DNA from: Algoriphagus halophilus
GTDB lineage: Bacteria; Bacteroidota; Bacteroidia; Cytophagales; Cyclobacteriaceae
NCBI RefSeq assembly: GCF_900129785.1
Contig: NZ_FSRC01000003.1
Location: 186,001-250,000 of the forward strand
Length of the DNA: 64,000 nucleotides
Direction of reading: 5' to 3'
The position numbers and the translations under genes were made by a program. The notes under the pieces are model-generated. The model worked only from the letters and a program-made list of their open reading frames with translations. It was not told where the DNA came from and did no database searches. Each line of letters starts with the position of its first letter. Positions within the stretch are counted from its first letter, which is position 1. Of this stretch, positions 23,021-39,700 are shown one piece after another.

Positions 23021-24055
23021 TTAGAGAGATCTTCTGACGATAAGTCTAAAAGGATTTTTGATTGGCATTCGATCTTCTGTTCCTAAAATTTGGTTGGCAA
23101 TAGACCTTCCCATATGGATAAAATCTGTGGAAATGGTAGAAATTCCTTTGTCTAAAATCTCTTTTAAGGGAGTTTCATTGTATGAAATCAAACCAACATC
23201 CTGTCCCAGATTCAAGCCTTGTTCTCTGGACTTCTTGATGATATTCACCAGATCTGACTCAGCTAATACCAAGAAAAGATCACCTTCATAAAGAGGCTCA
23301 TCATCAATTCCATCCAAGATCAGGTTTTCAAAATCGTGGAAAAAACAAAAACGTTTGAATCCATCCACAATTTCCACAGGATACATATCCCCTTTTGGAA
23401 ACACCAAGATCATTCTTTTATACTTCCTTAAATGGCTTAGCCCAGATTCTAGTGCAGCGAAAATATCTTTTGCAAAATCCTGAAAAATCCCTGGGAATTC
23501 GTTTTCATGGCCTTTTACAGCTCGATCCATAATCAACATCCTATCCTTTGGGATTTTCTTTAAAAGCTCGTATCCAGTCACAGGGTGTGTGTCTTTGTCA
23601 AAGAAATGAGGGGCTACAACATAATAATTGTATTTCCCCATGCTTTGATGCAGCAAATCTTCCAGCAGGTTCACATTATAATGGTGAATATGCATATCTA
23701 CCGTAGCATTATCTCCAAGAGTCTCTATGATGGAATAGTAGATGATTTTCTTGTAAGAGCTTAATTTGTTGAACAAAAGGAGAACTTTTAGTTTATTCTC
23801 AACATTCGTGGAACTGACATAGAAGCCCTTGCCTCTCACCGATGTGATGATACCGCGGTCCTTTAGCTCATTATAAGCTTTCTCTACAGTATCTCGGGAG
23901 AGTAAGAAGTCAAAACTAGTTTCATTAATAGAAGGAATTCGATCCCCGATGTTTAGTTTTCCTTTTTCAATTTCATCGAGGATCAAATTCACTACTTGTA
24001 AATACTTAGGGGTCCTTGAATCCGTAAGGATTCTTTCCGATTTGTCGACAAGCAT
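23021..24055 (-). CDS. GntR-type regulator with a LacI/periplasmic-binding-like sensor
   Basis: A 344-residue transcription factor. Residues ~14-85 are a GntR winged helix (TPKYLQVVNLILDEIEKG, SRDTVEKAYNELKDRGII, VRGKGFYV). The remaining ~250 residues have a periplasmic-binding-protein fold, seen in VGLISYNETPLKEILDKGIS and the family-like ISTDFIHMGRSIANQIL. This chimeric design resembles AraR of Bacillus. It is the second gene of the rhamnose operon, 40 bases after rhaEW, so it probably autoregulates and senses L-rhamnose or an intermediate. It is the best candidate to bind the TCCTG-N5-TCCTG repeats upstream of both rhaEW copies, but GntR proteins usually prefer inverted repeats, so the pairing is unproven. 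Confidence 0.88.
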   Translation of the reverse strand: MLVDKSERILTDSRTPKYLQVVNLILDEIEKGKLNIGDRIPSINETSFDFLLSRDTVEKAYNELKDRGIITSVRGKGFYVSSTNVENKLKVLLLFNKLSSYKKIIYYSIIETLGDNATVDMHIHHYNVNLLEDLLHQSMGKYNYYVVAPHFFDKDTHPVTGYELLKKIPKDRMLIMDRAVKGHENEFPGIFQDFAKDIFAALESGLSHLRKYKRMILVFPKGDMYPVEIVDGFKRFCFFHDFENLILDGIDDEPLYEGDLFLVLAESDLVNIIKKSREQGLNLGQDVGLISYNETPLKEILDKGISTISTDFIHMGRSIANQILGTEDRMPIKNPFRLIVRRSL

Positions 24056-24095: not shown

Positions 24096-26216
24096 CTATC
24101 TAGGAAAAGCCGGCGCCAATCCACCGTCCACGTTGATCATGTTTCCGGTTGATTTATTGAGCATTCCGGAAACGAAAGCAAAAGCTGCATCAGCGATGTC
24201 GGATGTTTTCACGGCTTCTTTGAGTAAGGTTCTGTTGGCATAATAAGCAGGAAGGTCCTTCACTTCAATTCCATAGGCCTTTGCCCGGTTTTCGGCCCAT
24301 CCACCTTCCCAGATGTTAGAGTTTTCGATGACTGCATCCGGGTTGACCACATTGACGCGGATCTTGTCCTCACCGAGTTCGGCTGCCATCAATCTGGACA
24401 TGTGCAGCTGTGCTGCCTTTGCGGTGCCATAAGCCACATTTTTAGGCCCTGCCACCAAAGCATTCTTGCTGACGATATTGACGATGTCCCCACCGAGTCC
24501 CTGCTGCTTGAGGATCTTGACTCCCTGCTGGGACACCTCAAACTGTCCCTTGACCAGGATGTCCAGCAGTTTGTTCCAGTCCTCCTCGGTATGTTCTTCC
24601 AAAGGCTTGGAGATGGAGATCCCTGCATTGTTGACGATGATGTCCAGTCCGCCGAACTTCAGGCAGATTTCCTGCATGGCTTTTTTGAGGCTTTCGGTAT
24701 CGGTGACATCCAGGGTAACTCCCAGGAATACATCCTTTCCGTATTTTTTCTGCATTTCCGCTTCGGTCTGTGCAAGTCTTTCCGCATTGATGTCGGTGAC
24801 CACCACACAGGCTCCTTCCTGTAAATATCGTTCGGCAATGCCTTTGCCGATTCCCCCTGCACTCCCTGTGATCAAAGCGATCCTTCTGGATAGGGGTTTT
24901 TCTTTAGGCATGCGCTGAAGCTTGGCCTCTTCAAGCAACCAGTATTCGATGTTGAATGCTTCCTGAAGGGGAAGGGAAACATAAGAGGAAACGGCCTCTG
25001 CCCCTCTCATTACGTTGATGGCGTTGATATAGAATTCGGAAGCTACCCTGGAAGTCTGCTTGTCCTTGGCAAAGGAGAAAAGACCTACACCCGGCCACAG
25101 AATGATGACCGGGTTGGGGTCACGCATGGCAGGGGAATTGGGATGCTTATGTTTTTCATAGTAATCGGCATACATCTCCCGGTACTTCTGGAATTCGACT
25201 TCCAGTTCAGCCTTCAAAGAAGCGGGATCGGAAAGGTCCACATCTGCGGGGATGTCGAGCACCAAAGGGGATATCTTGGTACGGAGGAAGTGATCCGGAC
25301 AGGAGGTGCCCATGGGTGCAAGTTTGTTCAGGTCGTTGGAATTGATGAACTGCAGTACTACCTCGGTATCGGAGAAGGTACCGACCATTTTCTTTTCGGA
25401 GGAAGCCAGTCCACGAAGCACTGGAGCCAGCAAGGCAGCCTGTGAGGCGCGCTGCTCGGCAGGAAGCGATGTGACTTTCTGTCCACCGAATACCGGTCTG
25501 TTTTTACCGTAATTGGCCTCCAGGTAAGCCGAGGCGGTTTCGATGACTTCCAAGCTGTTGATATAACACTCAAAAGACGTGTCTCCCCAGGTGAAGAGCC
25601 CATGTCCACCGAGCATGATTCCCCGGATCCCGGGATTGTCCTCCAAGGTCTGCTGCAACTGGAGTCCCAGATCGAATCCCGGCTTCTGCCAAGGTACCCA
25701 GGCGATCTGTCCGTTCCAGAGTTCCTGGGTGATCTTCTCACCTTCCTTGGAAGCGGCAATGGCAATGGCTGCATCAGGATGGAGGTGGTCAATGTGTTTG
25801 AAAGGTAAAAAAGCATGCAAAGGGGTGTCGATGGAAGGTGCTTTGGAGTCCAGATCGTAGATACAGTGGTTGAAAAGGCCCACCATTTCGTCTTCAAACT
25901 CAATGCCCCTGTAGATTCCCTGCAGTGCCCGGAGTTTGTCGACATATAGACCGGCCAGTCCGGCCTTGGTGAGTGTTCCGATGTCCCCGCCGGATCCTTT
26001 GACCCACATGATTTCCACAGACTCCTTGGTCAGCGGATCTTTTTCAAAAGTTTTGCAACTGGTATTGCCCCCACCGTAGTTGGTGATGCGGAGGTCGGCA
26101 CCCAGGATATTGGATCTATAAATTAATAGGTCAACTTCGTTTCCTTCCAAAGCGGCAGCCTTTTTATCATCCCATAAAAAGCTGACATGCTTGAATTCTT
26201 TTGTATTCGTAGTCAT
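24096..26216 (-). CDS. rhaEW: bifunctional L-rhamnulose-1-phosphate aldolase / L-lactaldehyde dehydrogenase, copy 1
   Basis: A 706-residue fusion. The N-terminal ~400 residues are a class II aldolase/adducin domain with metal-binding histidines around HIDHLHPDA (140-148) and GGHGLFTWGDT (His204). The C-terminal ~265 residues are a short-chain dehydrogenase: TGSAGGIGKG (449-458), NNAG (528-531), Tyr595-x3-Lys599. It cleaves L-rhamnulose-1-phosphate to DHAP and L-lactaldehyde and oxidises the latter to L-lactate. First gene of the six-gene minus-strand operon; no stop or frameshift. It is markedly richer in G+C than its surroundings (34/60 in line 25681 against 20/60 in line 23041). Residues 11-706 appear identical to the copy at 34093; only the first ten residues differ. 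Confidence 0.94.
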   Translation of the reverse strand: MTTNTKEFKHVSFLWDDKKAAALEGNEVDLLIYRSNILGADLRITNYGGGNTSCKTFEKDPLTKESVEIMWVKGSGGDIGTLTKAGLAGLYVDKLRALQGIYRGIEFEDEMVGLFNHCIYDLDSKAPSIDTPLHAFLPFKHIDHLHPDAAIAIAASKEGEKITQELWNGQIAWVPWQKPGFDLGLQLQQTLEDNPGIRGIMLGGHGLFTWGDTSFECYINSLEVIETASAYLEANYGKNRPVFGGQKVTSLPAEQRASQAALLAPVLRGLASSEKKMVGTFSDTEVVLQFINSNDLNKLAPMGTSCPDHFLRTKISPLVLDIPADVDLSDPASLKAELEVEFQKYREMYADYYEKHKHPNSPAMRDPNPVIILWPGVGLFSFAKDKQTSRVASEFYINAINVMRGAEAVSSYVSLPLQEAFNIEYWLLEEAKLQRMPKEKPLSRRIALITGSAGGIGKGIAERYLQEGACVVVTDINAERLAQTEAEMQKKYGKDVFLGVTLDVTDTESLKKAMQEICLKFGGLDIIVNNAGISISKPLEEHTEEDWNKLLDILVKGQFEVSQQGVKILKQQGLGGDIVNIVSKNALVAGPKNVAYGTAKAAQLHMSRLMAAELGEDKIRVNVVNPDAVIENSNIWEGGWAENRAKAYGIEVKDLPAYYANRTLLKEAVKTSDIADAAFAFVSGMLNKSTGNMINVDGGLAPAFPR
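24097..26189 (-). repeat. 2,093-bp direct duplication, left copy
   Basis: Matches 34094-36186 at a constant offset of 9,997 bases with no indel. By eye I found two differences: C at 24407 against T at 34404, and A at 26121 against G at 36118. Both are silent. Identity stops one base inside the stop codon at one end and inside codon 9-10 at the other, so only the coding sequence is shared, not the promoter or 3' flank. Confidence 0.93.
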
Positions 26217-26269
26217 TTACAATTTCAATTTTAATAGGTTGAATATGGGACAACCCAGGCTTTTTGGTG

Positions 26270-26284
26270 TCCTGTGCTGTCTTG
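26270..26284 (+). promoter_or_regulatory. candidate operator TCCTG-N5-TCTTG (site A)
   Basis: In the 254-base divergent region between rhaEW (start 26216) and the permease (start 26471). TCCTG TGCTG TCTTG, direct half-sites spaced by one helical turn, 54 bases from the rhaEW start. Same pattern as sites at 26418, 36279, 36581 and 36627. Confidence 0.5.
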
Positions 26285-26417
26285 AAATGGGTCATTTTTG
26301 TTACTTCAAGCCAATTTTAGCCCATTATTCTATTGTTAATTTTCGAAGGACAATTTAAGGAAATGAGGATGGAAGGGAAACAGCTTTTGGCTTTTATTCT
26401 ATCTTTTATCAAATTTC

Positions 26418-26432
26418 AAGGATGCAACAGGA
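26418..26432 (-). promoter_or_regulatory. candidate operator TCCTG-N5-TCCTT (site E)
   Basis: On the minus strand TCCTG TTGCA TCCTT, 38 bases upstream of the permease ATG. Shares CTATCCTGT-N-GCATCCT with the site at 36627. Position next to the start would suit repression of the transporter arm. Confidence 0.55.
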
Positions 26433-26470
26433 TAGTTGACAGGTTAATTTTGGATTTTTTACCCGCTGAT

Positions 26471-27877
26471 ATGAGTGATCAAAAATTATTTAAAAAGATA
26501 GTTAGCCAAACTAACGAATACGAGCGAACACCTGTGCCTACAAGTGAGCTTAAATCAGGAAAGAGCTTTCTTGGCATGTATGCTGGAGAGCACACAGCTG
26601 GTACCGAGTTTGTCATAGGCCCTTTATTTGTTGCACATGGGGTCGCTGCTACAGATCTTATTTTAGGTTTGTTTATAGGGAATCTTCTGGCAGTCCTGAG
26701 TTGGGGATTAATGACTGGTCCAATTGCTACCTCGAAAAGACTTACACTTTATTACCAACTAGAAAGGATTACTGGTAAATCAGTGGTTTCCCTATATAAT
26801 TTCATCAATGCATTGATGTTTTGTTTTTTGGCGGGATCCATGATTGCAGTGTCTGCTACTGCAGTGGGAATTCCATTTGGATTGGAAATGCCTACCTTGA
26901 CTGATTGGTATCCAAAAACCCCAGGCTGGATAGTCGCGGTGATGATTATGGGAGCGGTGATTACATTGATTGCGATCAGAGGGTATAATCAGGTAGCCAA
27001 GTTTGCCAATGTCATGGCACCTTGGATGATCTTGATTTTTATTTCTGCGGCATTTGCAGCCTTACCACAATTAGGAGTCCATTCCTTGGATGAGTTTGTT
27101 GTGGCAGCGAAAGAAGTAATATGGACTGGAGTTCCATTACCCGGAATTTCTAAATTTTCTGTCTGGCATGTCATATTTTTCTGTTGGTTCTGTAATATGG
27201 CCATGCACATCGGGATGTCTGATTTAACGATTTTGCGTTATGCTAAGTCCTGGAAATATGGGTTTTTATCTTTTGCGGGAATGTACATCGGTCACTTTGT
27301 TGCCTGGATAGCCTCTGGAATATTGTATGCTGTTTTCCTTCAAACCAATGCTAACTCCCAAGAATTTGCTCCAGGACCTATTGCTTTTCAAGCAGCAGGC
27401 GTAGCTGGGGCTGTTTGTGTGGTAGTAGCAGGATGGACCACAGCAAACCCAACTATTTATAGAGCGGGATTGGCTTTGCAAGGGATTTTTCCAAAAACCA
27501 AAACATGGAAAATCACCGCGATTGTAGGGGGAATTACCAGTCTGGCGGCCTGCTTCCCTGCTTTGGTGATGAAATTGTTAGATTTTGTGGCTTTGTATGG
27601 TTTGGTGTTGATGCCTATGGGAGCCGTCATCTTTGCAGATTTTTACTTCGCTGAAAAAATGGGTTTTCAGCCAGAACAAGCACTGAATAACAAAAAGGCA
27701 TTTACATGGCCAGCCTTAGCTGCTTGGCATATCACACTAGTTATTTGCTGGCTTTTGAATTACTTCTATGGACTGGAAATTTTCTTTTTGGGGCTTCCTG
27801 GATGGTTTATAGCCGTTACCTTATTTGTAATATTTTCCAAAATCCAGTTTCCAGCACTTCGAACGAAATTTGCATGA
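26471..27877 (+). CDS. NCS1-family cation symporter, probable sugar permease of the rhamnose locus
   Basis: A 468-residue polytopic membrane protein with about 12 hydrophobic segments. The ATG at 26471 is preferred over the frame's TTG at 26333, which would read through operator site E. SFLGMYAGEHTAGTEFVIGPLF and GLMTGPIATSKRL resemble the first helices of nucleobase:cation symporter-1 proteins. NCS1 members normally carry purines, pyrimidines, allantoin or hydantoin. Here the gene is coupled by ATGA overlaps to a 63-aa membrane protein and then rhaI, and there is no RhaT or major-facilitator carrier. Rhamnose uptake across the inner membrane is therefore inferred from context, not from family. 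Confidence 0.85.
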   Translation: MSDQKLFKKIVSQTNEYERTPVPTSELKSGKSFLGMYAGEHTAGTEFVIGPLFVAHGVAATDLILGLFIGNLLAVLSWGLMTGPIATSKRLTLYYQLERITGKSVVSLYNFINALMFCFLAGSMIAVSATAVGIPFGLEMPTLTDWYPKTPGWIVAVMIMGAVITLIAIRGYNQVAKFANVMAPWMILIFISAAFAALPQLGVHSLDEFVVAAKEVIWTGVPLPGISKFSVWHVIFFCWFCNMAMHIGMSDLTILRYAKSWKYGFLSFAGMYIGHFVAWIASGILYAVFLQTNANSQEFAPGPIAFQAAGVAGAVCVVVAGWTTANPTIYRAGLALQGIFPKTKTWKITAIVGGITSLAACFPALVMKLLDFVALYGLVLMPMGAVIFADFYFAEKMGFQPEQALNNKKAFTWPALAAWHITLVICWLLNYFYGLEIFFLGLPGWFIAVTLFVIFSKIQFPALRTKFA

Positions 27878-28065
27878 AAACCTTACTTAAAATAGCATCC
27901 TACCTAGCCCTTGTGCTGACCATAGTGCCACCTTTGATGTACTTTAAATCATTGATCTCACTTGATTCCAGCCATCTTTACATGACCATAGGGATGTTCC
28001 TCTGGTTTGGAACAGCACCTTTTTGGATCAATAAAAAGAAGGAGGATCAACCTAAAGAGTTATGA
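27874..28065 (+). CDS. 63-aa two-helix membrane protein, coupled to permease and isomerase
   Basis: A small protein starting at the ATG at 27874, which overlaps the permease stop by four bases; its own stop overlaps the rhaI ATG by four bases. Two hydrophobic segments are visible, ASYLALVLTIVPPLMYF and HLYMTIGMFLWFGTAPFWI, then a charged tail INKKKEDQPKEL. This two-helix pattern resembles small accessory subunits found beside some transporters in Bacteroidota. No family name is safe. Tight double coupling makes it very likely to be a real gene with a role in transport. Confidence 0.8.
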   Translation: MKTLLKIASYLALVLTIVPPLMYFKSLISLDSSHLYMTIGMFLWFGTAPFWINKKKEDQPKEL

Positions 28066-29342
28066 AATTAAGTTTAGAACAATTACAGGAATATAATCAA
28101 TCATTATTTTCCAGCCATCAGGAAGAGTTTGGATTTTTGGCCAATCAATTATCAAAAGAAGGGAATGATGTCAATGGGTTGGTTGAAAAAATCAAAGCTT
28201 TTCAAATTGCTGTCCCTAGTTGGGCTTTAGGAGCTGGAGGAACCCGGTTTGGGCGCTTTGGTATAGGGGGAGAGCCTAGAGATTTGGAAGAAAAACTCGA
28301 GGATATTGGTTTGTTGAAGGCTCTGACACAAAAAACAGATAGTGTTTCTTTACATATTCCTTGGGATATCCCAAGTGACTATGCGTCTATTCAATCGAAA
28401 GCAGAATCATTAGGGATCAGCTTTGATGCCATGAATAGTAACACTTTTCAAGATTATGGGCAGCCTCATAGTTACAAGCTAGGGTCACTCGGGAATGCAA
28501 AAAAATCAGTGAGAGACCAAGCTGTTGCGCATAATGTGGAAGTGATTGAAATTGGAAAAAAGTTAGGGAGTAAAGGGTTGACCGTTTGGTTGGCAGATGG
28601 TAGTAATTTTCCAGGACAAGCAAGCTTGAGAAATTCATTGCATTGGACACAAGAATCCTTGTCTGAAATCTACCAGGCCATGCCAGAAGACTGGAAGTTA
28701 TTAGTGGAATACAAACCGTATGAGCCTAACTTTTATCATACCATTATTCCAGACTGGGGTACCTCCTCCTTGCTATGTAAATCTGTGGGAGATCGGGCAA
28801 AGGTTTTAGTGGATTTAGGACACCATTTACCCAATACCAATATTGAACAAATTGTGGCTACGTTGGTGTATCAGGATATGTTAGCAGGTTTCCATTTTAA
28901 TGATAGTAAGTATGGAGATGATGACTTAACTACTGGTAGTATTAAGCCGTATCAGTTGTTCTTGATTTTTTGCGAACTGATTTCAGGTTCTGAGGATGGA
29001 GCCCAAGCATGGGAAAGTATTTCTTGGATGATTGATGCAAGCCATAATACCAAGGATCCCTTGGAAGATTTGATGCAAGCCCTTGAAATGATCAGTATCA
29101 GTTTTACCAAAGCTTTATTGGTCAATAGAGAGAAATTGACTGCTTGCCAGATGGAAGGCGATGTGGTAGGAGCGCAGGAATGCCTCCAAGAGGCATTTCA
29201 AAGAGATGTCCGTCCTTTGGTAAAAGAGGCTAGAATTCAATTAGGAGGTGCCGCAGACCCTATTGGGCACTATCGCAAAATGGATGTTCGAAAAAAATTG
29301 ATTCAGGAAAGAGGAGCAGAATCGAGATCCACTGGCTTGTAA
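28062..29342 (+). CDS. rhaI: L-rhamnose isomerase, RhaI (Pseudomonas stutzeri) type
   Basis: A 426-residue metal-dependent TIM-barrel isomerase converting L-rhamnose to L-rhamnulose. Hallmarks: VPSWALGAGGTRFGRF near the start, VWLADGSNFPGQ, and metal-ligand stretches VEYKPYEPNFYHT (Glu217), VDLGHHLPNTNIEQ (Asp251) and GFHFNDSKYGDDDL (His278). The C-terminal DPIGHYRKMDVRKKLIQERG is typical. This is the RhaI form, not the E. coli RhaA form. It follows the permease and small membrane protein in one transcript and feeds the kinase and aldolase encoded on the opposite arm. Confidence 0.93.
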   Translation: MKLSLEQLQEYNQSLFSSHQEEFGFLANQLSKEGNDVNGLVEKIKAFQIAVPSWALGAGGTRFGRFGIGGEPRDLEEKLEDIGLLKALTQKTDSVSLHIPWDIPSDYASIQSKAESLGISFDAMNSNTFQDYGQPHSYKLGSLGNAKKSVRDQAVAHNVEVIEIGKKLGSKGLTVWLADGSNFPGQASLRNSLHWTQESLSEIYQAMPEDWKLLVEYKPYEPNFYHTIIPDWGTSSLLCKSVGDRAKVLVDLGHHLPNTNIEQIVATLVYQDMLAGFHFNDSKYGDDDLTTGSIKPYQLFLIFCELISGSEDGAQAWESISWMIDASHNTKDPLEDLMQALEMISISFTKALLVNREKLTACQMEGDVVGAQECLQEAFQRDVRPLVKEARIQLGGAADPIGHYRKMDVRKKLIQERGAESRSTGL

Positions 29343-29432
29343 TTGTTTTTCATGGTTCTACCTTGGAAAGTCTCGTAATGACAATTCAAAAGGATTTAAT
29401 AAATTGGTGATTAGAACATTATCAATCGAGCC

Positions 29433-30464
29433 ATGAATAAGCCTCTGCCTATTATTTTTTTCTCTCTACTTGTGTTGTCTTGCAATTCGCCAGAAAAGAA
29501 GGCGGATTCTGAGGCAGGGGATTCTAAGGTTTCAAATTTTGAAACAACGGGTTCCATCGAAAGATTAAATGGGAGTATGGATATGTTAATCCCTCTTGAT
29601 TCTAAGATTGAGGTGATTGCATCAGGCTTTGATTGGTCTGAAGGACCTTTATGGCTAGAGGATCAGCAGGCATTGATATTTACAGATGTTCCAGAAAACA
29701 AGATTTGGAAATGGTCAGAATCAGATAGCTTACAGGTTTATTTGGAGCCATCTGGATACTTTGGAAGTGAGACAAATAAAAGAGAACCAGGAGCCAATGG
29801 GCTGATTTTGGATGAAGCCGGGAAGTTGATGCTATGCCAACATGGAGCCAGACAGGTTGCCAAAATGGTCAGTGATATTTCAGAGCCTAGTCCAGTTTTT
29901 GAGGTGTTGGCAGATACCTACGAGGGAAAGAAGTTTAATAGCCCCAATGATTTGGTGAAGAGTGAAAACGGAAATTTGTTTTTCACAGACCCACCTTATG
30001 GATTGGATGAATGGGATGTCAAGGAGCTGGAATTTCAGGGTGTTTATCAGCTTGATTTTATGGGGAATTTAACCCTACAGATAGACTCACTTTCCCGTCC
30101 AAATGGTATCGGATTAAGTCCTGATGAAAAAACCTTATATGTGGCCCAATCAGACCCCCTTAAAGCAAGATATTATGCTTTTAATTTGGATGAAAATCAA
30201 AATGTAAGTTCAGGGGAAATGATTTTGGATGTGAGTGAACTGGTTGGAGAGGCCAATCCTGGGCTTCCAGATGGAATGGCTGTGCATAGTAGTGGGAACT
30301 TGTTTGCAAGTGGACCTGGTGGAATTTTGATCATCAGTCCCAATGGAGAACACTTGGGGACGATTAAAACAGGAAGAGCAACCTCTAACTGTACTTTTGA
30401 TACCAATGAAGATTACCTATACATCACGGCTGATGGAGAGTTGTTGAGAGTGAGATTAAAATAG
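29433..30464 (+). CDS. SMP-30/gluconolactonase-like lipoprotein
   Basis: A 343-residue lipoprotein (LLVLSC signal, Cys17 region). The mature part is a six-bladed SMP-30/gluconolactonase propeller: SEGPLWLEDQQALIFTDVP, NGLILDEAGKLMLCQHGAR, NSPNDLVKSENGNLFFTDPPYGL and NGIGLSPDEKTLYVAQSD are the classic blades, including the metal-binding Glu, Asn and Asp positions. It likely hydrolyses a sugar lactone in the periplasm. It lies 90 bases after rhaI in the same direction and may be part of the same transcript, which would fit an oxidative side route for rhamnose (rhamnonolactone), though no rhamnose dehydrogenase is seen. Confidence 0.87.
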   Translation: MNKPLPIIFFSLLVLSCNSPEKKADSEAGDSKVSNFETTGSIERLNGSMDMLIPLDSKIEVIASGFDWSEGPLWLEDQQALIFTDVPENKIWKWSESDSLQVYLEPSGYFGSETNKREPGANGLILDEAGKLMLCQHGARQVAKMVSDISEPSPVFEVLADTYEGKKFNSPNDLVKSENGNLFFTDPPYGLDEWDVKELEFQGVYQLDFMGNLTLQIDSLSRPNGIGLSPDEKTLYVAQSDPLKARYYAFNLDENQNVSSGEMILDVSELVGEANPGLPDGMAVHSSGNLFASGPGGILIISPNGEHLGTIKTGRATSNCTFDTNEDYLYITADGELLRVRLK

Positions 30465-30466
30465 CG

Positions 30467-31024
30467 TTAATTTTTACTCCAATCCCAAACTACAATGGCC
30501 CAGGTTTCATACTCGTCTTTGAAGGTATGAATCACTTCAAACCCCACTTTTTGATGTGCTTTTAAAGATCTTGCATTTGAAATAGAAATTTCTGTGATCG
30601 CAAAATCATAGTCTTTTTCAAAGGCTTTTCGATAGGCTCCATAGCCACTAAAGAACAATCCTTGTCCTCGGTATTTTTTACCAACACAAACCTGTCCTAC
30701 GGCCATATAATTATACTCACTTACTTTTTTACCTAGGTAATAAAGTTCATCAAATTGCTCAAACATGGGCACCAACATAGGGACATCATTCCTGGATATT
30801 TTGGTCATCGCAAGAAAATAGGCAGCCACATGATCTCCATCTTTTGCGATGATATGAGGTTCGATAGAGTTTAGTGATCCCAACAACTCTAAATTGTGCT
30901 GAACTCTTACAAAGCCTTGTTCATTCTTCTCTGATTCTGAGATGTTTTGGATTAGGTTTTCTTCTTGAAGGTCTAAAATCCCTTGGAGATCAGCTTCAGT
31001 TTCTGCTTGGCAAACGGTTACCAT
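30467..31024 (-). CDS. GNAT-fold N-acetyltransferase
   Basis: A 185-residue single-domain acetyltransferase. The acetyl-CoA loop is VGQVCVGKKYRGQGLFFSG (Q/R-x2-G-x-G/A form as RGQGLF). The following ISISNARSLKAHQKVGFEVIHTF is the usual C-terminal helix-strand. Substrate is unknown. It is convergent with the SMP-30 gene, two bases apart, and is followed upstream by the MscS gene in the same direction (9 bases), so the two are probably cotranscribed. Confidence 0.84.
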   Translation of the reverse strand: MVTVCQAETEADLQGILDLQEENLIQNISESEKNEQGFVRVQHNLELLGSLNSIEPHIIAKDGDHVAAYFLAMTKISRNDVPMLVPMFEQFDELYYLGKKVSEYNYMAVGQVCVGKKYRGQGLFFSGYGAYRKAFEKDYDFAITEISISNARSLKAHQKVGFEVIHTFKDEYETWAIVVWDWSKN

Positions 31025-31033
31025 AAAAAGGAA

Positions 31034-32743
31034 TTAGCTATAGGTTGAGTCTTCTGGTTCTTCGCCCGCGTCTGAGGGTTTGATTTCCATGTTCTCAGGG
31101 TTAGAAGGGGCAGGAGGAGTAGTAGGTTCTGTTGGCGGAGTTTCCTCAGGAATATATTTTGGAGGAATTGTCAAATCATTTCCTTCTCTGTTAGCCCGGT
31201 AATGTGGAGACATGATTTCTACGCCAGCTTCTGTGAAGGCATCTTGAATACTGGCATGTAAATCAGAGTAACTTTTGGCTGCTTTTTTAGTCTCAATCGT
31301 GTAAGCATTGATCTGATAACTCACATAAAAATCATTCAAACTTGTCTGCAAAACAAAAGGTTTAGGCTCTTTGATAATTGTATCCACTTTTAATGCGGCA
31401 CCGATCAAGAGCTCATGAACTTTGCGCCAGGGTACATCATATCCTATGGTTACAGTACTATGTAAAATTAATCCAGAGCTATTTTCTTCTACGGTATAAT
31501 TGATAGTATTTCCATTTAAAATGGCAGAATTTGGGATGGTGACTTCTTCATTTTTGATGGTTCGAAGACGGGTGACCAACATTGTTTTTTCAATTACATC
31601 CCCAGTAGTATCTCCGATTTTTACACGATCTCCGATTTTAAATGCCCTCATGTAAATGATGACCAGGCCAGCAATTATATTACTGATTGCTGAAGAAGAA
31701 CCTAAGGAGATTAATAGGCCTAAAAAAACGCTGACCCCTTGGAAGGCAGGAGAATCTGAGCCAGGTAAATAAGGGAAAATCACAATGAATGCGAAGGCAT
31801 AAATAATGATTTTAATCAAATTGAAAGTAGGCTTTGCCCATTCTGGATAAAAACCTGGAATGCTTAAGTTACCCCTCCCAATTTCGCCCGAAATGAAATT
31901 CACAAATTGCCCTATGTAGTAGGTAATGACCACCACCACGATGATCATAAACATGTAGGGAATATATTGTAAGAAAGAGTTAATGATGGATTTTAAGGGG
32001 TTGGTGATGTAACCCAATAAGAGCCCTGCAAGATTTTTAGTAGCAGGGAATATACTGAATATAATAGGAAGAGTAAGGTACAGTAATATAATGATGAGGA
32101 TAATTTTGACGATCCTCATCAATGATTTTAGAAGGCTTTCTTCACGTTCTGCGGAGAGTAATTCAAAGTCTTTGATTTTGATTCCTTTGAAATATTTATG
32201 CCATTTGGATAGAATAAAATCAATGGTTTTATTGATGCCTTTATTGATTAAATACACCAATAAGACTACCACTAAAATCACCCCGATAAGCATTCCTGTT
32301 CTGGTGATAATCTGTATCAAGGAACGATCCTCATGATTTCTCCTGTAAGATTCTTTAATCGCTTCCAGATATTCCTGGGCCAGCACGCTTTGGTCTTTTT
32401 CAAAATAGGAAGCATCCTCTTTTGTGACACTTCCTAAAATCATTTCACCATGCCAAATTTCGATGGCAATATCATCTTGAGTAGTACTTAAAAGAGTGGT
32501 GTCAAATACCTCGGTTTCTAGAAGAAGATCTAGCTTGTTGCTGAAATTTTGGGCTCTTTCAGAGGGGGTGAATGGACCTATCTTATTGGCGATGAAGAAT
32601 AAAGTGTCATTAAAAAACAGTACAGGTTTTTGAATGCTATCAGGATAGTTAATAGAAGTTGAATCTTGATCTTGGGCAAAAACCAATCCCCAGTTCACAA
32701 CTAATAAAAGAAGTATAGAAATTCTCTTAAAAATTAATATCAT
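31034..32743 (-). CDS. MscS-family mechanosensitive channel with N-terminal extension
   Basis: A 569-residue protein starting at the ATG at 32743, which gives a signal peptide (ISILLLLVVNWGLVFAQ); a GTG at 32797 is the longer alternative. It has a ~120-residue periplasmic part, then five or so membrane helices. The last, pore-lining one is in LGLLISLGSSSAISNIIAGLVIIYMRAF, and the beta domain begins KIGDRVKIGDTTGDVIEKTML. The C-terminal cytoplasmic portion ends in a Pro/Glu-rich tail. It releases solutes on hypo-osmotic shock. A standard housekeeping-type gene in an otherwise catabolic region. Confidence 0.92.
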   Translation of the reverse strand: MILIFKRISILLLLVVNWGLVFAQDQDSTSINYPDSIQKPVLFFNDTLFFIANKIGPFTPSERAQNFSNKLDLLLETEVFDTTLLSTTQDDIAIEIWHGEMILGSVTKEDASYFEKDQSVLAQEYLEAIKESYRRNHEDRSLIQIITRTGMLIGVILVVVLLVYLINKGINKTIDFILSKWHKYFKGIKIKDFELLSAEREESLLKSLMRIVKIILIIILLYLTLPIIFSIFPATKNLAGLLLGYITNPLKSIINSFLQYIPYMFMIIVVVVITYYIGQFVNFISGEIGRGNLSIPGFYPEWAKPTFNLIKIIIYAFAFIVIFPYLPGSDSPAFQGVSVFLGLLISLGSSSAISNIIAGLVIIYMRAFKIGDRVKIGDTTGDVIEKTMLVTRLRTIKNEEVTIPNSAILNGNTINYTVEENSSGLILHSTVTIGYDVPWRKVHELLIGAALKVDTIIKEPKPFVLQTSLNDFYVSYQINAYTIETKKAAKSYSDLHASIQDAFTEAGVEIMSPHYRANREGNDLTIPPKYIPEETPPTEPTTPPAPSNPENMEIKPSDAGEEPEDSTYS

Positions 32744-32856
32744 AAGTAGGTAATAATTGTAGGTATATCCTTGCTTACTAATTTCTATACCATTCACAGG
32801 ATTAAATTAAATAAAATTCATCGTTTTCAGTAGATTTGATCAAAAACCATTTAATC

Positions 32857-33219
32857 ATGACTTTTAATAAAGTGTATTATGGACTTTGGGTAGTCCTTTT
32901 CGCCTTATTTGCCTTTTGGCAATTCAATGACCCAGACCCTGAAATTTGGGTAAGTATTTATGGGGTAGCAATTATTTTCTGTTTATTGGGTTTTAGGGGT
33001 ATATTCCCTAAAATACCTTTGACAGTGGTAGTTGCTGCCTGTCTTATCGGTGCGGCCTATTATTGGCAAGGCCATGTAGGAGATTGGGTTTCTCAAGAGG
33101 TAGAGCAGCATAATCTCAGTATGAAAAATGATTTCATGGAAGAATCCAGAGAATCATTTGGTCTTATGATTATTACTTTGGTGATGATCCCTGGTTTGAT
33201 AAAAGCCTGGAAAAAATAA
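32857..33219 (+). CDS. TMEM220-family small membrane protein
   Basis: A 120-residue protein from the ATG at 32857 (a TTG at 32836 would add seven residues). Three to four hydrophobic segments are visible, with the family's signature FWQFNDPDPEIWVSIYG after the first helix. The family (transmembrane protein 220) is widespread in Bacteroidota and eukaryotes and has no known function. It is divergent from MscS and 38 bases upstream of the NIPSNAP gene, probably the same transcript. Confidence 0.8.
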   Translation: MTFNKVYYGLWVVLFALFAFWQFNDPDPEIWVSIYGVAIIFCLLGFRGIFPKIPLTVVVAACLIGAAYYWQGHVGDWVSQEVEQHNLSMKNDFMEESRESFGLMIITLVMIPGLIKAWKK

Positions 33220-33257
33220 TCCCTTACCTTATCTTTTACTTTCTTACCAATGAACCC

Positions 33258-34010
33258 ATGAAAAAAATATCATTATTGACACTTTTAGGAGTGCTTTTCA
33301 GTTTGAGTGCATTTAGCCAGCAAGCAGCAAATTTGAAGTCTAATTATTTTGAAATCAGGAAATACTACGCTAATCCTGGGAAGTTGCCTGATTTGATCAA
33401 AAGATTTCAGGATCATACAGTAGCTTTATTTGAAAAAAGCGGGATGGAAAATGTGGCGTATTTTGTGCCAGTAGAAAATAATGATAATTCATTGACTTAT
33501 ATATTGGGCTATCCGGATGAGGAAGCGAGAGATAGAATGTGGAATCAGTTTTTGAATGACCCAGAATGGAAAAAGGCTTACCAAGAGTCTATTGTGGATG
33601 GGGCTTTGGTTTCCAAAATAGATCAAACCTTTATGACTTTAGCACCAGGCTTAAACGAAATGCCCATGCCAAGTAAAAGTGGTGTGTTCCAATTAAGGGT
33701 TTATACCTGTTTAGATGGGAAAATTGATAACCTCATCGCACGATTTAAAGACCATACCCAAGACCTTTTTGCACGTCAAGGTTTAAAGAATTATCCATAT
33801 TGGATTACTTCCGAAAAAGAGGGAGGCCAGCCCAAGCTTGTATATTTATTAGGTCATGAAGACAAAGCTAAATTTGAAGCTGCATTTCAGAATTTTCTAA
33901 AAGACCCAGATTGGGTTGCTGCTAGAGATGCTTCTGAAGCAAATGGAAAAATCGTAGAAAAAGTAGATGCTACCTTCTTTACCACACTACCATTTTCTCC
34001 TATGAAATAA
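33258..34010 (+). CDS. exported protein with two NIPSNAP domains
   Basis: A 250-residue protein with a signal peptide ending near LSAFSQ. Two tandem NIPSNAP (dimeric alpha/beta barrel) units follow: YFEIRKYYANPGKLPDLIKRFQDH...DDPEWKKAYQES-like, and FQLRVYTCLDGKIDNLIARFKDH...KDPDWVAARDAS. Internal duplication makes an intramolecular dimer of the ferredoxin-like fold. The biochemical role is not established; exported NIPSNAP proteins often lie in Bacteroidota sugar loci. A strong bidirectional terminator separates it from the second rhaEW copy. Confidence 0.88.
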   Translation: MKKISLLTLLGVLFSLSAFSQQAANLKSNYFEIRKYYANPGKLPDLIKRFQDHTVALFEKSGMENVAYFVPVENNDNSLTYILGYPDEEARDRMWNQFLNDPEWKKAYQESIVDGALVSKIDQTFMTLAPGLNEMPMPSKSGVFQLRVYTCLDGKIDNLIARFKDHTQDLFARQGLKNYPYWITSEKEGGQPKLVYLLGHEDKAKFEAAFQNFLKDPDWVAARDASEANGKIVEKVDATFFTTLPFSPMK

Positions 34011-34036
34011 AAGATGAAGATTTAATGGAGCAATAA

Positions 34037-34066
34037 AAAGGCATACATCAGAATGTATGCCTTTTT
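34037..34066. terminator. bidirectional terminator
   Basis: AAAGGCATACAT (34037-34048) pairs perfectly with ATGTATGCCTTT (34053-34064) around CAGA, with A-rich and T-rich flanks. It lies between the NIPSNAP stop at 34010 and the 3' end of rhaEW copy 2 at 34093, serving both strands. Confidence 0.85.
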
Positions 34067-34092
34067 TGATTTTCATAGTGGGGTCTATTTAA

Positions 34093-36213
34093 TTATCTAG
34101 GAAAAGCCGGCGCCAATCCACCGTCCACGTTGATCATGTTTCCGGTTGATTTATTGAGCATTCCGGAAACGAAAGCAAAAGCTGCATCAGCGATGTCGGA
34201 TGTTTTCACGGCTTCTTTGAGTAAGGTTCTGTTGGCATAATAAGCAGGAAGGTCCTTCACTTCAATTCCATAGGCCTTTGCCCGGTTTTCGGCCCATCCA
34301 CCTTCCCAGATGTTAGAGTTTTCGATGACTGCATCCGGGTTGACCACATTGACGCGGATCTTGTCCTCACCGAGTTCGGCTGCCATCAATCTGGACATGT
34401 GCAGTTGTGCTGCCTTTGCGGTGCCATAAGCCACATTTTTAGGCCCTGCCACCAAAGCATTCTTGCTGACGATATTGACGATGTCCCCACCGAGTCCCTG
34501 CTGCTTGAGGATCTTGACTCCCTGCTGGGACACCTCAAACTGTCCCTTGACCAGGATGTCCAGCAGTTTGTTCCAGTCCTCCTCGGTATGTTCTTCCAAA
34601 GGCTTGGAGATGGAGATCCCTGCATTGTTGACGATGATGTCCAGTCCGCCGAACTTCAGGCAGATTTCCTGCATGGCTTTTTTGAGGCTTTCGGTATCGG
34701 TGACATCCAGGGTAACTCCCAGGAATACATCCTTTCCGTATTTTTTCTGCATTTCCGCTTCGGTCTGTGCAAGTCTTTCCGCATTGATGTCGGTGACCAC
34801 CACACAGGCTCCTTCCTGTAAATATCGTTCGGCAATGCCTTTGCCGATTCCCCCTGCACTCCCTGTGATCAAAGCGATCCTTCTGGATAGGGGTTTTTCT
34901 TTAGGCATGCGCTGAAGCTTGGCCTCTTCAAGCAACCAGTATTCGATGTTGAATGCTTCCTGAAGGGGAAGGGAAACATAAGAGGAAACGGCCTCTGCCC
35001 CTCTCATTACGTTGATGGCGTTGATATAGAATTCGGAAGCTACCCTGGAAGTCTGCTTGTCCTTGGCAAAGGAGAAAAGACCTACACCCGGCCACAGAAT
35101 GATGACCGGGTTGGGGTCACGCATGGCAGGGGAATTGGGATGCTTATGTTTTTCATAGTAATCGGCATACATCTCCCGGTACTTCTGGAATTCGACTTCC
35201 AGTTCAGCCTTCAAAGAAGCGGGATCGGAAAGGTCCACATCTGCGGGGATGTCGAGCACCAAAGGGGATATCTTGGTACGGAGGAAGTGATCCGGACAGG
35301 AGGTGCCCATGGGTGCAAGTTTGTTCAGGTCGTTGGAATTGATGAACTGCAGTACTACCTCGGTATCGGAGAAGGTACCGACCATTTTCTTTTCGGAGGA
35401 AGCCAGTCCACGAAGCACTGGAGCCAGCAAGGCAGCCTGTGAGGCGCGCTGCTCGGCAGGAAGCGATGTGACTTTCTGTCCACCGAATACCGGTCTGTTT
35501 TTACCGTAATTGGCCTCCAGGTAAGCCGAGGCGGTTTCGATGACTTCCAAGCTGTTGATATAACACTCAAAAGACGTGTCTCCCCAGGTGAAGAGCCCAT
35601 GTCCACCGAGCATGATTCCCCGGATCCCGGGATTGTCCTCCAAGGTCTGCTGCAACTGGAGTCCCAGATCGAATCCCGGCTTCTGCCAAGGTACCCAGGC
35701 GATCTGTCCGTTCCAGAGTTCCTGGGTGATCTTCTCACCTTCCTTGGAAGCGGCAATGGCAATGGCTGCATCAGGATGGAGGTGGTCAATGTGTTTGAAA
35801 GGTAAAAAAGCATGCAAAGGGGTGTCGATGGAAGGTGCTTTGGAGTCCAGATCGTAGATACAGTGGTTGAAAAGGCCCACCATTTCGTCTTCAAACTCAA
35901 TGCCCCTGTAGATTCCCTGCAGTGCCCGGAGTTTGTCGACATATAGACCGGCCAGTCCGGCCTTGGTGAGTGTTCCGATGTCCCCGCCGGATCCTTTGAC
36001 CCACATGATTTCCACAGACTCCTTGGTCAGCGGATCTTTTTCAAAAGTTTTGCAACTGGTATTGCCCCCACCGTAGTTGGTGATGCGGAGGTCGGCACCC
36101 AGGATATTGGATCTATAGATTAATAGGTCAACTTCGTTTCCTTCCAAAGCGGCAGCCTTTTTATCATCCCATAAAAAGCTGACATGGTTAAATGATTTAT
36201 TTGTTGTTGCCAT
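34093..36213 (-). CDS. rhaEW: bifunctional L-rhamnulose-1-phosphate aldolase / L-lactaldehyde dehydrogenase, copy 2
   Basis: 706 residues, the same aldolase-SDR fusion as at 24096, with identical catalytic motifs. It differs only in the first ten residues (MATTNKSFNH against MTTNTKEFKH) and stops in TAA instead of TAG. It is a single-gene unit ended by the terminator at 34037, and divergent from susC with a 495-base shared control region carrying three candidate operators. So one copy sits at the head of the catabolic operon and one at the uptake operon. Two intact copies may raise dosage or allow separate control. Same foreign-looking, G+C-rich codon use as copy 1. Confidence 0.94.
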   Translation of the reverse strand: MATTNKSFNHVSFLWDDKKAAALEGNEVDLLIYRSNILGADLRITNYGGGNTSCKTFEKDPLTKESVEIMWVKGSGGDIGTLTKAGLAGLYVDKLRALQGIYRGIEFEDEMVGLFNHCIYDLDSKAPSIDTPLHAFLPFKHIDHLHPDAAIAIAASKEGEKITQELWNGQIAWVPWQKPGFDLGLQLQQTLEDNPGIRGIMLGGHGLFTWGDTSFECYINSLEVIETASAYLEANYGKNRPVFGGQKVTSLPAEQRASQAALLAPVLRGLASSEKKMVGTFSDTEVVLQFINSNDLNKLAPMGTSCPDHFLRTKISPLVLDIPADVDLSDPASLKAELEVEFQKYREMYADYYEKHKHPNSPAMRDPNPVIILWPGVGLFSFAKDKQTSRVASEFYINAINVMRGAEAVSSYVSLPLQEAFNIEYWLLEEAKLQRMPKEKPLSRRIALITGSAGGIGKGIAERYLQEGACVVVTDINAERLAQTEAEMQKKYGKDVFLGVTLDVTDTESLKKAMQEICLKFGGLDIIVNNAGISISKPLEEHTEEDWNKLLDILVKGQFEVSQQGVKILKQQGLGGDIVNIVSKNALVAGPKNVAYGTAKAAQLHMSRLMAAELGEDKIRVNVVNPDAVIENSNIWEGGWAENRAKAYGIEVKDLPAYYANRTLLKEAVKTSDIADAAFAFVSGMLNKSTGNMINVDGGLAPAFPR
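34094..36186 (-). repeat. 2,093-bp direct duplication, right copy
   Basis: Partner of 24097-26189, same orientation, start-to-start distance 9,997 bases. Two silent base differences seen. Homologous recombination between the copies would remove the permease, rhaI, SMP-30, GNAT, MscS, TMEM220 and NIPSNAP genes as a ~10-kb circle. Confidence 0.93.
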
Positions 36214-36278
36214 GTATTTTGGGTTTTGTCAATATTGTAACATGCAAAACAATTTAATATGGTATATATGGTATGCTG

Positions 36279-36293
36279 TCCTGTTCTATACTG
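36279..36293 (+). promoter_or_regulatory. candidate operator TCCTG-N5-TACTG (site B)
   Basis: TCCTG TTCTA TACTG, 66 bases upstream of rhaEW copy 2. As at site A it is on the plus strand and is followed by TTGAAA.GG-like bases (site A: TTGAAATGG; site B: TTGAAAGGG a few bases on), so the two rhaEW promoters share more than the core. Confidence 0.5.
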
Positions 36294-36580
36294 TATTGAA
36301 AGGGTTGAAAAAATGTTATATAAGGTATTTTTATTTTATAAAAGGTCCAAACCAGTCTTTGTTGGGTTTAGAAGAGGTATAATATGTTTGGGATTAATTT
36401 ATTAAGTGGATTAAAATTTAAAAAAATAAAATTTAAGCGCTGAAAAACAAAAGGTTGCAGAATTTACAGATCTTTTTATTTACTACTTATTATAGTTTTT
36501 ACATTGATAAGTATACTTTGTTGATAAATATTTAATGTTATTATGTAAATAAAAATAAAATTGTTTTTGTCATATTTCTA

Positions 36581-36595
36581 TCCTGTACTATCCTG
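36581..36595 (+). promoter_or_regulatory. candidate operator TCCTG-N5-TCCTG (site C), perfect repeat
   Basis: TCCTG TACTA TCCTG, two exact half-sites ten bases apart. Faces site D (36627-36641, minus strand), 46 bases away start to start, upstream of susC. Confidence 0.6.
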
Positions 36596-36626: not shown

Positions 36627-36641
36627 CAGGATGCGACAGGA
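36627..36641 (-). promoter_or_regulatory. candidate operator TCCTG-N5-TCCTG (site D), perfect repeat
   Basis: Minus strand TCCTG TCGCA TCCTG, 68 bases upstream of susC. Shares CTATCCTGT and GCATCCT with site E at the permease gene. Two perfect copies facing each other in one A+T-rich region are unlikely by chance. Confidence 0.62.
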
Positions 36642-36708
36642 TAGGTTTGGGTGTTAATAGAAGTTAATTAGTAGAAATTACCGCTTGTTAACATAAAACC
36701 CAAGATCT

Positions 36709-39700
36709 ATGAAAAACAATTATTTATTAATAAAGAAGCGATTTTTACTGCTTCTTTTTATTATTCTTTCAACCAGCATTTCGGCCTTTTCTCAGGCTAC
36801 GAATGTGACCGGTACTGTGAAAGATGAAACAGGAGAAGTTGTACCGGGAGCCACCGTAATGATCAAAGGTACCCAGACAGGTACCGTAACTGATATTGAC
36901 GGTGTTTTTTCTATTCAAGCAGCCCCAGGAAGTATTTTGGTGATTAGTTTTATTGGATATACGCCTACTGAGGTGGCGGTCCAATCGGGACAAACCAATT
37001 ACGATGTTACGATTAACACTTCTATGTCGGATTTATCCGAAGTAGTTGTAGTGGGGTATGGTAGCCAAATTAAAAAGGAAGTGACTGGAGCTATTCAATC
37101 TATCAGTGAAGATGAATTGAAAGACATGCCAGTTACTACTACGGCACAGAAGTTACAAGGTAAATTAGCAGGGGTTCAAATCAACCAGACTACTGGTAAG
37201 CCTGGCCAAGGGATGAACGTAAGAATCCGTGGTCAGCTTTCCGTATCAGGAGGTAGTGATCCATTATACGTAGTGGATGGATTCCCTATTACAGGTGATA
37301 TTAATACCCTGAACCCTGATGAAATCCAAGATATAACCATATTGAAAGATGCGGCTTCTACCTCTTTATATGGGTCTAGAGCAGCCAATGGTGTGGTTTT
37401 GATTACAACTAAAAGAGGAAAAGTAGGGCAAACAAATGTAAACCTAAATGTCTATACAGGATTCCAGAAAGTTCCTGAAAATGGTAGGCTTGAAATGTTA
37501 AATGCAGAAGAGTTTGCCCAGTTTAAAAAGGAATATTATGAAGATGCGGGGCAACCTGTTCCGGCTATTTTCCAAAACCCATCTGATTTCAGAGGTAAAA
37601 CTAATGATTGGTATGGAGCCATGTTGGAAACTGCTCCAATTACCAACTATAACTTAACCATCACTTCAAATAAAGAGAGGGTAAATACGGCAATTGTAGC
37701 AGGTGTGTTTGATCAAAAAGGAGTGGTAAGAAATACAGATTACGAAAGGTATTCCTTAAGAATGAATACAGATTATACAGTTTCTGACAAGGTTTCCATC
37801 GGGTTGAATGTGGCTCCAAGCTATATCGTAGATAATACGCCTCAAACAGATGGTTCCAGGGGTACTGGTATTTTATTTAACGCTTTGCATACTTGGCCAG
37901 TGATGGACATTTATGATGAGAATGGAGATCTAACCTTCTTCAATAGATTCCCTTCTGAGACAGGAAATATCTTTGCTTACCCTAACTGGTTACGGTCTGC
38001 GGATGAAATTACCAATCAGACCAAGAGGGTAAATATCTTGGCTAATACCTATGCAGAATGGAGACCGATTAAAGGACTTTCTTTGAAGTCTACATTCAAT
38101 ACGGAGATTAGAAATTCAAATTATTTCTTCTTTAACCCTTCGACTGCAACGAATAGAATCAACGTTTCTATTCCGACGGTAGCGGTTTCTATTAGAGATA
38201 ATTTCCGTGATTTTTCATGGTTGAATGAAAATATTGCGACCTATACCAATAATATTGGAGATCATAATTTTGAGATTTTAGCTGGTTTTTCTAATCAACA
38301 GTTTAGAAGAGATCGTACCAGAGTACAAGCTGATACTTATGCTGATGATCGACTACCAACCATTCAAGGTGCGATCAATATAAACAGAGGTGGAACTATT
38401 TCTGACGTGGATGAATGGACGTTGACCTCCATTTTCTCAAGGTTGACCTATAATTTTAAAGGAAAGTACTTATTTACTGCTGCAGTAAGAGGGGATGGTT
38501 CTTCCAGATTCGGTGCTGACAATCGTTGGGGTGTATTCCCTTCTACTTCGGTAGGTTGGGTGATTTCTGACGAAGAGTTTTTAAACACAAGTTCATCTGT
38601 CTCCTTCCTGAAATTGAGAGCAAGTTACGGGGTAACCGGTAATAACAATATTGGTAATTACACCCAGTATGCTTTGGTGAATAATACTATTAATGCGGCA
38701 TTTGGCAGCAATGTAGTTCCAGGTGCGGCAGTTACTTCATTGAGTAACTCTAACCTAGGATGGGAGACCACTTCACAATTTGATATTGGAATGGATCTCG
38801 GTTTATGGGATGATCGAGTGACCTTTGGTTATGATTATTATACCAAAAACACTACTAATTTATTGTATGCGGTTCAGGTTCCTCAAGAATCTGGATTTAC
38901 AAACTTCAACGATAATATTGGTGAGATCAAGTTCTGGGGTCATGAATTTACTGTCAACGCAGTTATTGCTCCAGGAACGTTCAGATGGTCTGTCAATGCG
39001 AACTTATCCATTAATAGAAATGAAGTATTGGAATTAGCAGATGGAATTGACCGAGTTTATGGTTATGCACATATTACTCAAGTAGGACAGCCTTTCGGCC
39101 AGTTTTATGGGTTAAATAAACTAGGTAATTATGCTAACGCCGAGGACTTAGCAAATTCTCCAGTGATTCCAGGAAGATCTACAGTAGGAAGTATTAAACT
39201 GGAAGATATCAATGGAGATGGCGTAATTACCTATGGTGGAGATAACGATGATAGAACTATTATCGGCAATCCGTTCCCTGATTTTGTGTATGGTTTTACC
39301 AACAATTTCAAGTGGAAAAATTGGGATGCTAGCATTGTAGCTTCTGGTTCTCAAGGTAATCAGTTGTACATGAGACACCTTTATTCTACAGCCAATTTGG
39401 ATGGGGTATTCAACATGGTTGCGAAAGTTGCAGATCGCTTCAGATCTCCAGAAAACCCAGGTGAAGGAATTTTTGGAACTACTGTAGGTGGTGGTAACGT
39501 GACTGGTATCGAGAGAGACTGGCCAAACAGTAATTTCGTTTGGGATGCTTCTTACTTTACTATTAGAAACATCACAGTAGGCTATAACTTCACAAATCTA
39601 CCTAAGTCAATAAAGGCGGCACGTGTTTATGCTTCCGGACAAAATATGTGGGTTTTTACCAAATATTGGGGAGGGTCTAACCCAGAGGTTAGTATGCAGA

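Follow-up and report, generated by a model that had tools for sequence, protein, structure and literature searches.

A rhaEW gene pair in Algoriphagus, very probably homogenized by gene conversion and raised in GC content at third codon positions

Two nearly identical copies of rhaEW, which is predicted to encode a bifunctional enzyme of rhamnose catabolism, lie 10 kb apart in direct orientation in the genome of Algoriphagus halophilus, and comparison with relatives makes us highly confident that they are an old duplicate whose copies have been overwritten within each species by gene conversion. The window, meaning the whole 64-kb stretch of DNA that was analyzed, comes from an assembly of 4.98 Mb in 8 contigs and contains both copies. 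The pair also stands out by a high GC content at third codon positions (GC3). GC-biased conversion is the likeliest cause of this rise, unproven and in our judgement close to an even call. The copies and their parts are as follows.

24096-26216, minus strand: rhaEW copy a, bifunctional rhamnulose-1-phosphate aldolase / lactaldehyde dehydrogenase, 706 aa (ORF and profile scans)
34093-36213, minus strand: rhaEW copy b, 706 aa, identical to copy a except at residues 2, 4, 5, 7 and 9 (comparison with copy a)
24097-26189, no strand assigned: apparently homogenized stretch in copy a (2,093 bases, 2 of them different)
34094-36186, no strand assigned: apparently homogenized stretch in copy b (base-by-base comparison)
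26190-26216, minus strand: apparently unconverted codons 1-9 of copy a (grouping with copy a of two other species)
36187-36213, minus strand: apparently unconverted codons 1-9 of copy b (codon comparison)

Base-by-base comparison places the two stretches at a fixed offset of 9,997, with two mismatches, both silent: CAG/CAA in codon 603 (24408/34405) and ATT/ATC in codon 32 (26121/36118). The first-pass annotation had described this match of about 2.1 kb at the same offset with two silent differences; the match is real and the second position was correct, while the first had been put at 24407/34404, off by one. It had also bounded the match by the first ten codons and the stop codon, and indeed one end falls within codons 2-9 and the other at the stop codon, which is TAG in copy a and TAA in copy b (base 24096/34093). 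Codons 2-9 of the copies are unlike, yet recognizable as one N-terminus (MTTNTKEFKHVSF and MATTNKSFNHVSF), and the flanks share 12-46% identity in 50-base windows. Both ORFs are intact, and their 706-aa proteins are five residues apart. Copy a, the copy that was scanned, scores above the NCBIfam cut-offs for TIGR02632 and NF006191 (bifunctional aldolase/short-chain dehydrogenase) and has class II aldolase and short-chain dehydrogenase domains; on these profiles it is RhaEW, a predicted fusion of rhamnulose-1-phosphate aldolase and lactaldehyde dehydrogenase. The same bifunctional enzyme is described by Rodionova et al. 2013 (PMC3870299), where RhaEW activity was shown for Chloroflexus and Bacillus proteins; the main text of that paper does not contain the strings ‘paralog’ or ‘duplicat’.

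A Pfam scan of six genes between the copies (all but two small ORFs) found no transposase domain, and a search of the 64-kb window for repeats of at least 60 nt found no inverted repeats, so the earlier statement that transposase and inverted repeats are lacking holds for these genes and this repeat length. Two of the in-between genes, 26333-27877 and 30467-31024, have no Pfam match. The repeat search gave one further direct repeat, an unrelated 60-nt pair at 1040-1099 and 1332-1391 that is 87% identical with starts 292 bases apart.

The two copies have different surroundings. Copy a comes first in a run that also contains a GntR-type regulator, an FGGY kinase and genes of LutABC-type lactate oxidation, and its other side faces a permease and a RhaI-like gene; the permease, isomerase, kinase and SusD names come from NCBIfam matches below cut-off or from Pfam domains. 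Copy b is solitary, with a terminator-like hairpin behind it and with susC and a SusD-like gene on its divergent side. Comparable hairpins lie 3' of copy b in two relatives. In some genomes, lactate dehydrogenase genes belong to the rhamnose regulon (PMC3870299).

18907-21583, minus strand: three LutABC-type lactate oxidation genes (CCG, LUD/Fe-S and LUD domains)
21648-22988, minus strand: FGGY sugar kinase, candidate rhamnulokinase (Pfam above cut-off; NCBIfam rhamnulokinase far below cut-off)
23021-24055, minus strand: GntR-type regulator with periplasmic-binding-like domain, candidate rhamnose regulator (Pfam)
26471-27877, plus strand: permease (weak NCS1 match, below cut-off)
28062-29342, plus strand: L-rhamnose isomerase-like gene (461 bits to TIGR02629, below the cut-off of 646.75)
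34035-34067, minus strand: terminator-like hairpin and T-run directly 3' of copy b (identified by eye)
36709-41353, plus strand: susC (above cut-off) and SusD-like gene (below cut-offs), divergent from copy b (NCBIfam)

We searched the genus for further copies and found a match in 59 of 72 genomes (E <= 1e-60). Two full, alike copies are present in our genome and in G213, an Algoriphagus genome in one contig with the same gene order (kinase, regulator, copy a, permease, rhaI, SGL, a homologue of the gene at 30467, MscS, NIPSNAP, copy b, susC) and a copy-to-copy offset of 10,003 (9,997 here). Two drafts complete this two-copy clade. In A. iocasae DSM 102044 (G263, with which the matches of G208 coincide), three gene pieces lie at contig ends: one contig carries copy b and susC, one runs from NIPSNAP to copy a, and one has the tail of copy a with regulator and kinase, the break falling inside the gene. 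Assemblies often break at near-identical repeats, and the broken gene suggests that draft assemblies can hide such pairs. In the metagenome-assembled genome Ww129 (G264, with which the match of G238 coincides), copy b is present and the contig begins within the promoter of copy a, just short of that gene, which we infer for this genome. The genes from permease to NIPSNAP are common to all four genomes, and so is the NIPSNAP–copy b–susC junction, whose two sides are on separate contigs in A. iocasae. Among 19 loci (L039-L057), the regulator adjoins the gene in 14, and the permease is on the opposite side in 10 of these 14.

The other genomes with two full copies (G169, G182, G007 and G230) have them on different contigs and diverged in all four cases, at 67-92% protein identity with saturated synonymous sites; conversion is thus not automatic for rhaEW. 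G230 was rejected as a single-genome pair: it is a metagenome bin with two diverged rha loci and their neighbours (L153 and L154), probably a mixed bin of two species. G246 was likewise set aside as a two-copy genome, as its two contig ends overlap by 77 residues and are one base apart there, and were taken as one split gene. A search of the order for adjacent pairs gave a match in 174 of 390 genomes (E <= 1e-180) and two matches in nine, including our own; among the matches listed, both places are given for six of these nine genomes, and they are adjacent only in ours. In 223 plasmid records, the best-covering place is 65% identical over 91% of the gene.

Within genomes, the copies are far closer to each other than to their counterparts in other species. 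Over codons 10-707, stop codon included, they are apart at 3 of 2,094 bases here (one of them in the stop codon) and at 12 of 2,094 in G213, and at 41 of 1,104 readable bases (3.7%) in the incomplete copies of A. iocasae, while rhaEW differs between species at 15-20% of bases; the G213 gene is 81% identical to ours. Synonymous distances (NG86 dS) are 0.004, 0.026 and 0.166 within our genome, G213 and A. iocasae, respectively, and 0.95-1.49 between species. In a maximum-likelihood tree of 20 sequences, the gene bodies pair by genome (100/100), and the AU test rejects both a clade of the three a copies (p 2.6e-49) and a clade of the four b copies (p 5.8e-8). The first nine codons of copy a and the flanks group by position instead. 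In these codons, copy a of A. iocasae is 2 of 27 bases away from ours and that of G213 4 of 27, whereas our own copy b is 11 of 27 away. For copy b, differences between species (7-12 of 27) overlap with those between copies a and b within a genome (7-11 of 27), so grouping of the N-terminus by position is clear for copy a only, and the orthology of the b copies rests on junction synteny, leader and operator-like site, since their N-terminus does not discriminate. All 12 differences in G213 are silent and lie beyond base 1,346, leaving an identical tract of 1,322 nt (permutation p 1e-4); the corresponding test in A. iocasae, on incomplete copies, gave p 0.11. Over codons 10-377 of the A. iocasae copies, 36 differing codons are silent and 3 non-silent, a ratio that suggests purifying selection on both.

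These data strongly favour the following history. An ancestral rhaEW was probably duplicated once, before the four Algoriphagus lineages split; copy a would have remained in the rhamnose operon, and copy b would have come to lie 10 kb off, divergent from a susCD-like locus for glycan uptake. Since then, recombination between the direct copies, presumably by RecA-dependent exchange, would repeatedly have overwritten one with the other inside each genome, as far as the limits of shared homology at about codon 9 and the stop codon. Conversion would halt there because the flanks no longer match, and nothing beyond this lost flank homology is needed to explain the coding-only boundary. The pair may supply extra enzyme within one regulon, with a benefit of dosage.

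It is very unlikely that each species instead made a fresh copy recently, with no long-term conversion. Such copying would account for copies that are almost identical in two genomes and 96% identical in the third, but in four genomes copy b sits at one and the same junction and shares its leader and operator-like site, and independent copying would have to strike identical bases each time, from about codon 9 to the stop. The first-pass annotation had offered gene conversion and a very recent copy into a second promoter as alternatives. The latter is contradicted by a locus, leader and operator-like site common to four genomes near synonymous saturation; the former is borne out, with between-copy identity above between-species identity in the three genomes with both copies readable, A. 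iocasae being read in part, out of the four genomes of this one clade. An assembly artefact that placed one gene twice is more improbable still: our assembly has 8 contigs and only two bases differ inside the match, but the one-contig relative G213 also carries two copies, with differences and flanks private to it, and each locus here has its own flanks and N-terminus.

Both promoters share a candidate operator. The direct repeat CAGGAYAG-NN-CAGGAYAG, near variants included, precedes copy a in 13 of 13 aligned regions (three from the two-copy clade and ten single-copy), and it is likewise found ahead of copy b and of susC in 4 of 4 genomes.

26267-26284, minus strand: operator-like direct repeat before copy a (CAAGACAGCACAGGACAC; all 13 aligned intergenic regions retain the core)
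26418-26435, plus strand: operator-like direct repeat before the permease (pattern matched with 3 mismatches; counterparts in three relatives)
36276-36293, minus strand: operator-like direct repeat before copy b (CAGTATAGAACAGGACAG; alignment and pattern search; relatives)
36578-36595, minus strand: operator-like direct repeat between copy b and susC (no mismatches to the pattern; relatives)
36627-36644, plus strand: operator-like direct repeat before susC (2 mismatches; relatives)

We place the permease start at the ATG at 26471 and not at the listed TTG at 26333, because this ATG is conserved and in-frame stops lie upstream of it in two relatives; the site at 26418-26435 therefore sits in the permease promoter. 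With up to three mismatches, the pattern has six matches in the window against 1.08 expected (none of 100 shuffles reached six), five of them within the intervals between rhaEW and the permease and between rhaEW and susC. Allowing up to two mismatches, our whole genome has seven matches, and the reversed control has none. Four of the seven are in the two rhaEW intervals and one is inside the 5' end of an ORF; a further match (L166:1501-1518, G000:C1:305545-305562) lies 70 bases before a gene for a GH106 alpha-L-rhamnosidase, and another about 100 bases before another SusC-like gene. G213, G208 and G238 each have five matches at the same five places (totals 9, 14 and 9; controls 2, 2 and 0). 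As the motif is shared by both rhaEW promoters, permease, susC and the GH106 gene, both copies seem to be members of a single rhamnose regulon, and from these sites they probably answer to the same rhamnose regulator; the repeat before the GH106 gene suggests that the regulon is wider. That the repeats are bound by the GntR protein is conjecture; sites of that family are not usually direct repeats. The two genes had initially been described as separately controlled: their promoter sequences do differ, but with a common operator-like motif their control is not clearly separate.

The pair would add a catabolic enzyme, both copies of which seem to respond to one and the same sugar signal, to the bacterial genes that evolve in concert. 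Concerted evolution of bacterial genes is already known, with 19 genes reported by Wang and Chen 2018 (PMC6053082), and rhaEW is not among the 26 genes in the paper's two tables; the paper counted genes seen in at least five species, and the pair described here is in four genomes. As in its set of recurrent cases, the paralogs here are closer than orthologs and are anchored by synteny. A close parallel is tufA/tufB (PMC5485169, PMC6053082), likewise two nearly identical coding sequences in unlike contexts. The Salmonella tuf copies are 762 kb apart, inverted, and encode a translation factor, whereas the rhaEW copies are 10 kb apart, direct, encode a sugar-catabolic enzyme and show a jump in GC3. 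We found no earlier report of gene conversion in Algoriphagus or of rhamnulose genes, nor, among the papers listed, a recognized case of biased conversion between paralogs (tufA included) or duplicates within a bacterial genome; these literature negatives are weak evidence of absence because most subscription journals were outside coverage.

The GC3 of copies a and b is 0.596 and 0.593 here and 0.528 and 0.524 in G213; it is 0.555 in copy b of Ww129, and 0.563 and 0.549 in the partial copies b and a of A. iocasae. Our 13 neighbouring genes give a pooled 0.348, and 115 ORFs of at least 200 codons from ten 20-kb stretches of our genome a mean of 0.377 (sd 0.046, maximum 0.507). Among the 41 window ORFs of at least 200 codons, the rhaEW pair ranks as the top two. 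The difference between gene and neighbours is +0.14 to +0.26 in the two-copy clade and −0.022 (sd 0.027, range −0.102 to 0.024) at 41 distinct single-copy loci whose neighbours supply 150 codons or more; these loci include the two diverged loci of G230 and three loci from other genera. GC3 is thus raised in the converting pair while single-copy orthologs track their neighbours, a comparison that rests on one clade and counts as one evolutionary event. The six copies in three genomes with unconverted pairs have no consistent GC3 excess, but this control is not clean because two of the six exceed both flanking ORFs (L157, 0.731 versus 0.618 and 0.674; L159, 0.402 versus 0.390 and 0.333).

Several features of the rise fit GC-biased conversion. 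The excess is lower at the gene ends, with 0.111 in 60-codon ends and 0.201 in the middle (bootstrap P 0.008; 0.016 for 80-codon and 0.07 for 40-codon ends; three full-length sequences against 12 low-GC single-copy sequences), and is about zero in codons 1-9. Among polarized third-position changes, seven control genes have S-to-W rates of 0.19-0.26 and rhaEW has 0.09-0.11, with p 0.002, 0.0003 and 0.06 for three lineages. W-to-S rates in rhaEW are not above those of controls in our own lineage (17/74 versus 108/536, p 0.54), which means that the force remains active and works through the sparing of G and C. Three observations speak against GC-biased conversion. The codon shift is uneven, with Gln CAG at 0.93 and Ile ATC at 0.81; CNG codons and most C-ending codons are up, while Glu GAG, all Gly and AGN codons barely move or fall. 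In addition, the S>W:W>S ratio does not differ between unfixed and fixed changes (15:13 versus 34:34, p 0.82, under relaxed calling; 11:4 among unfixed changes under strict calling, p 0.15). The third is the GC3 of the two unconverted copies, L157 and L159, that lies above both flanking ORFs. Words rich in CCG, CGG or CCGG are enriched in the pair, as are CCTG/CAGG words. A Chi-like or restriction motif was considered as a possible source of the codon shift: CCWGG and CTAG counts lean the same way, but we saw no single motif behind it. For the full statement, that copy-to-copy conversion within the chromosome is GC-biased and, in a span long enough to bring synonymous sites near saturation, raised GC3 about 0.2 above the genome in all four pair-carrying genomes, with single-copy orthologs tracking their neighbours, our support is tentative and falls a little short of even.

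Selection on codon usage in a highly expressed duplicated gene is a real but lesser possibility. The uneven shift, in which Gln CAG and Ile ATC rise and Glu and Gly stay static, is unlike a uniform drive towards GC and would suit such selection, as would the alike ratios for unfixed and fixed changes. Against it, the 28 ORFs around rplN, a ribosomal-protein stretch, have a mean GC3 of 0.356 and tuf has 0.337, with other codons preferred, and the rhaEW shift correlates at 0.19-0.28 with the ribosomal shift, compared to 0.66 with GC-ending and 0.74 with the shift from low-GC to high-GC members of the genus. Permease, isomerase and kinase of the same pathway are unshifted (0.36-0.38), and a smaller excess at the gene ends is likewise at odds with codon selection. 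Acquisition from a GC-rich donor, to which a GC3 out of line with the genome might point, is improbable: protein trees of rhaEW and of gntR, the kinase and lutAB both place the clade (three genomes used) within Algoriphagus, and neither joins it to the GC-rich L043 and L044, the rhaEW tree leaving the exact sister ambiguous; a foreign signal should have faded because synonymous sites are near saturation between species; and the polarized changes show fewer S-to-W losses than in control genes.

If GC-biased copy-to-copy conversion is indeed the cause, the pair would demonstrate the process within a single bacterial genome, and the single-copy sister species would serve as internal controls. A similar argument was once made for mammalian histone paralogs. 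Recombination as a driver of bacterial GC content is a disputed question, with the debate set out by Weissman 2019. Lassalle et al. 2015 (PMC4450053) argue that recombination drives GC content and report that recombining bacterial genes are GC-richer, independent of codon selection, whereas, according to Ely 2021, such an effect has yet to be observed, though some data are conceded to fit it. PMC4450053 relates gene GC content to evidence of intragenic recombination, and the present case concerns conversion between copies in one genome; the strings ‘paralog’ and ‘duplicat’ are absent from its text, as are the terms ‘GC content’ and ‘GC-biased’ from that of PMC6053082. Because one clade has a duplicated, self-converting rhaEW whereas its sisters have a single copy, recombination can be separated from species, pathway and genome background, which makes the question directly testable.

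Further observations concern other parts of the window. Downstream of susCD, 41522-51424 encodes a heme-binding c-type protein, a 3-keto-disaccharide hydrolase, a DUF4432 protein, a sugar isomerase-like TIM barrel, a Gfo/Idh/MocA oxidoreductase and a sulfatase, a set that suggests an oxidative (3-keto) glycoside route instead of plain hydrolysis. The ORF at 55679-56896 has a strong match to the EboE ‘metabolite traffic protein’ (522 bits, cut-off 250), and the ORFs surrounding it may form an ebo cluster.
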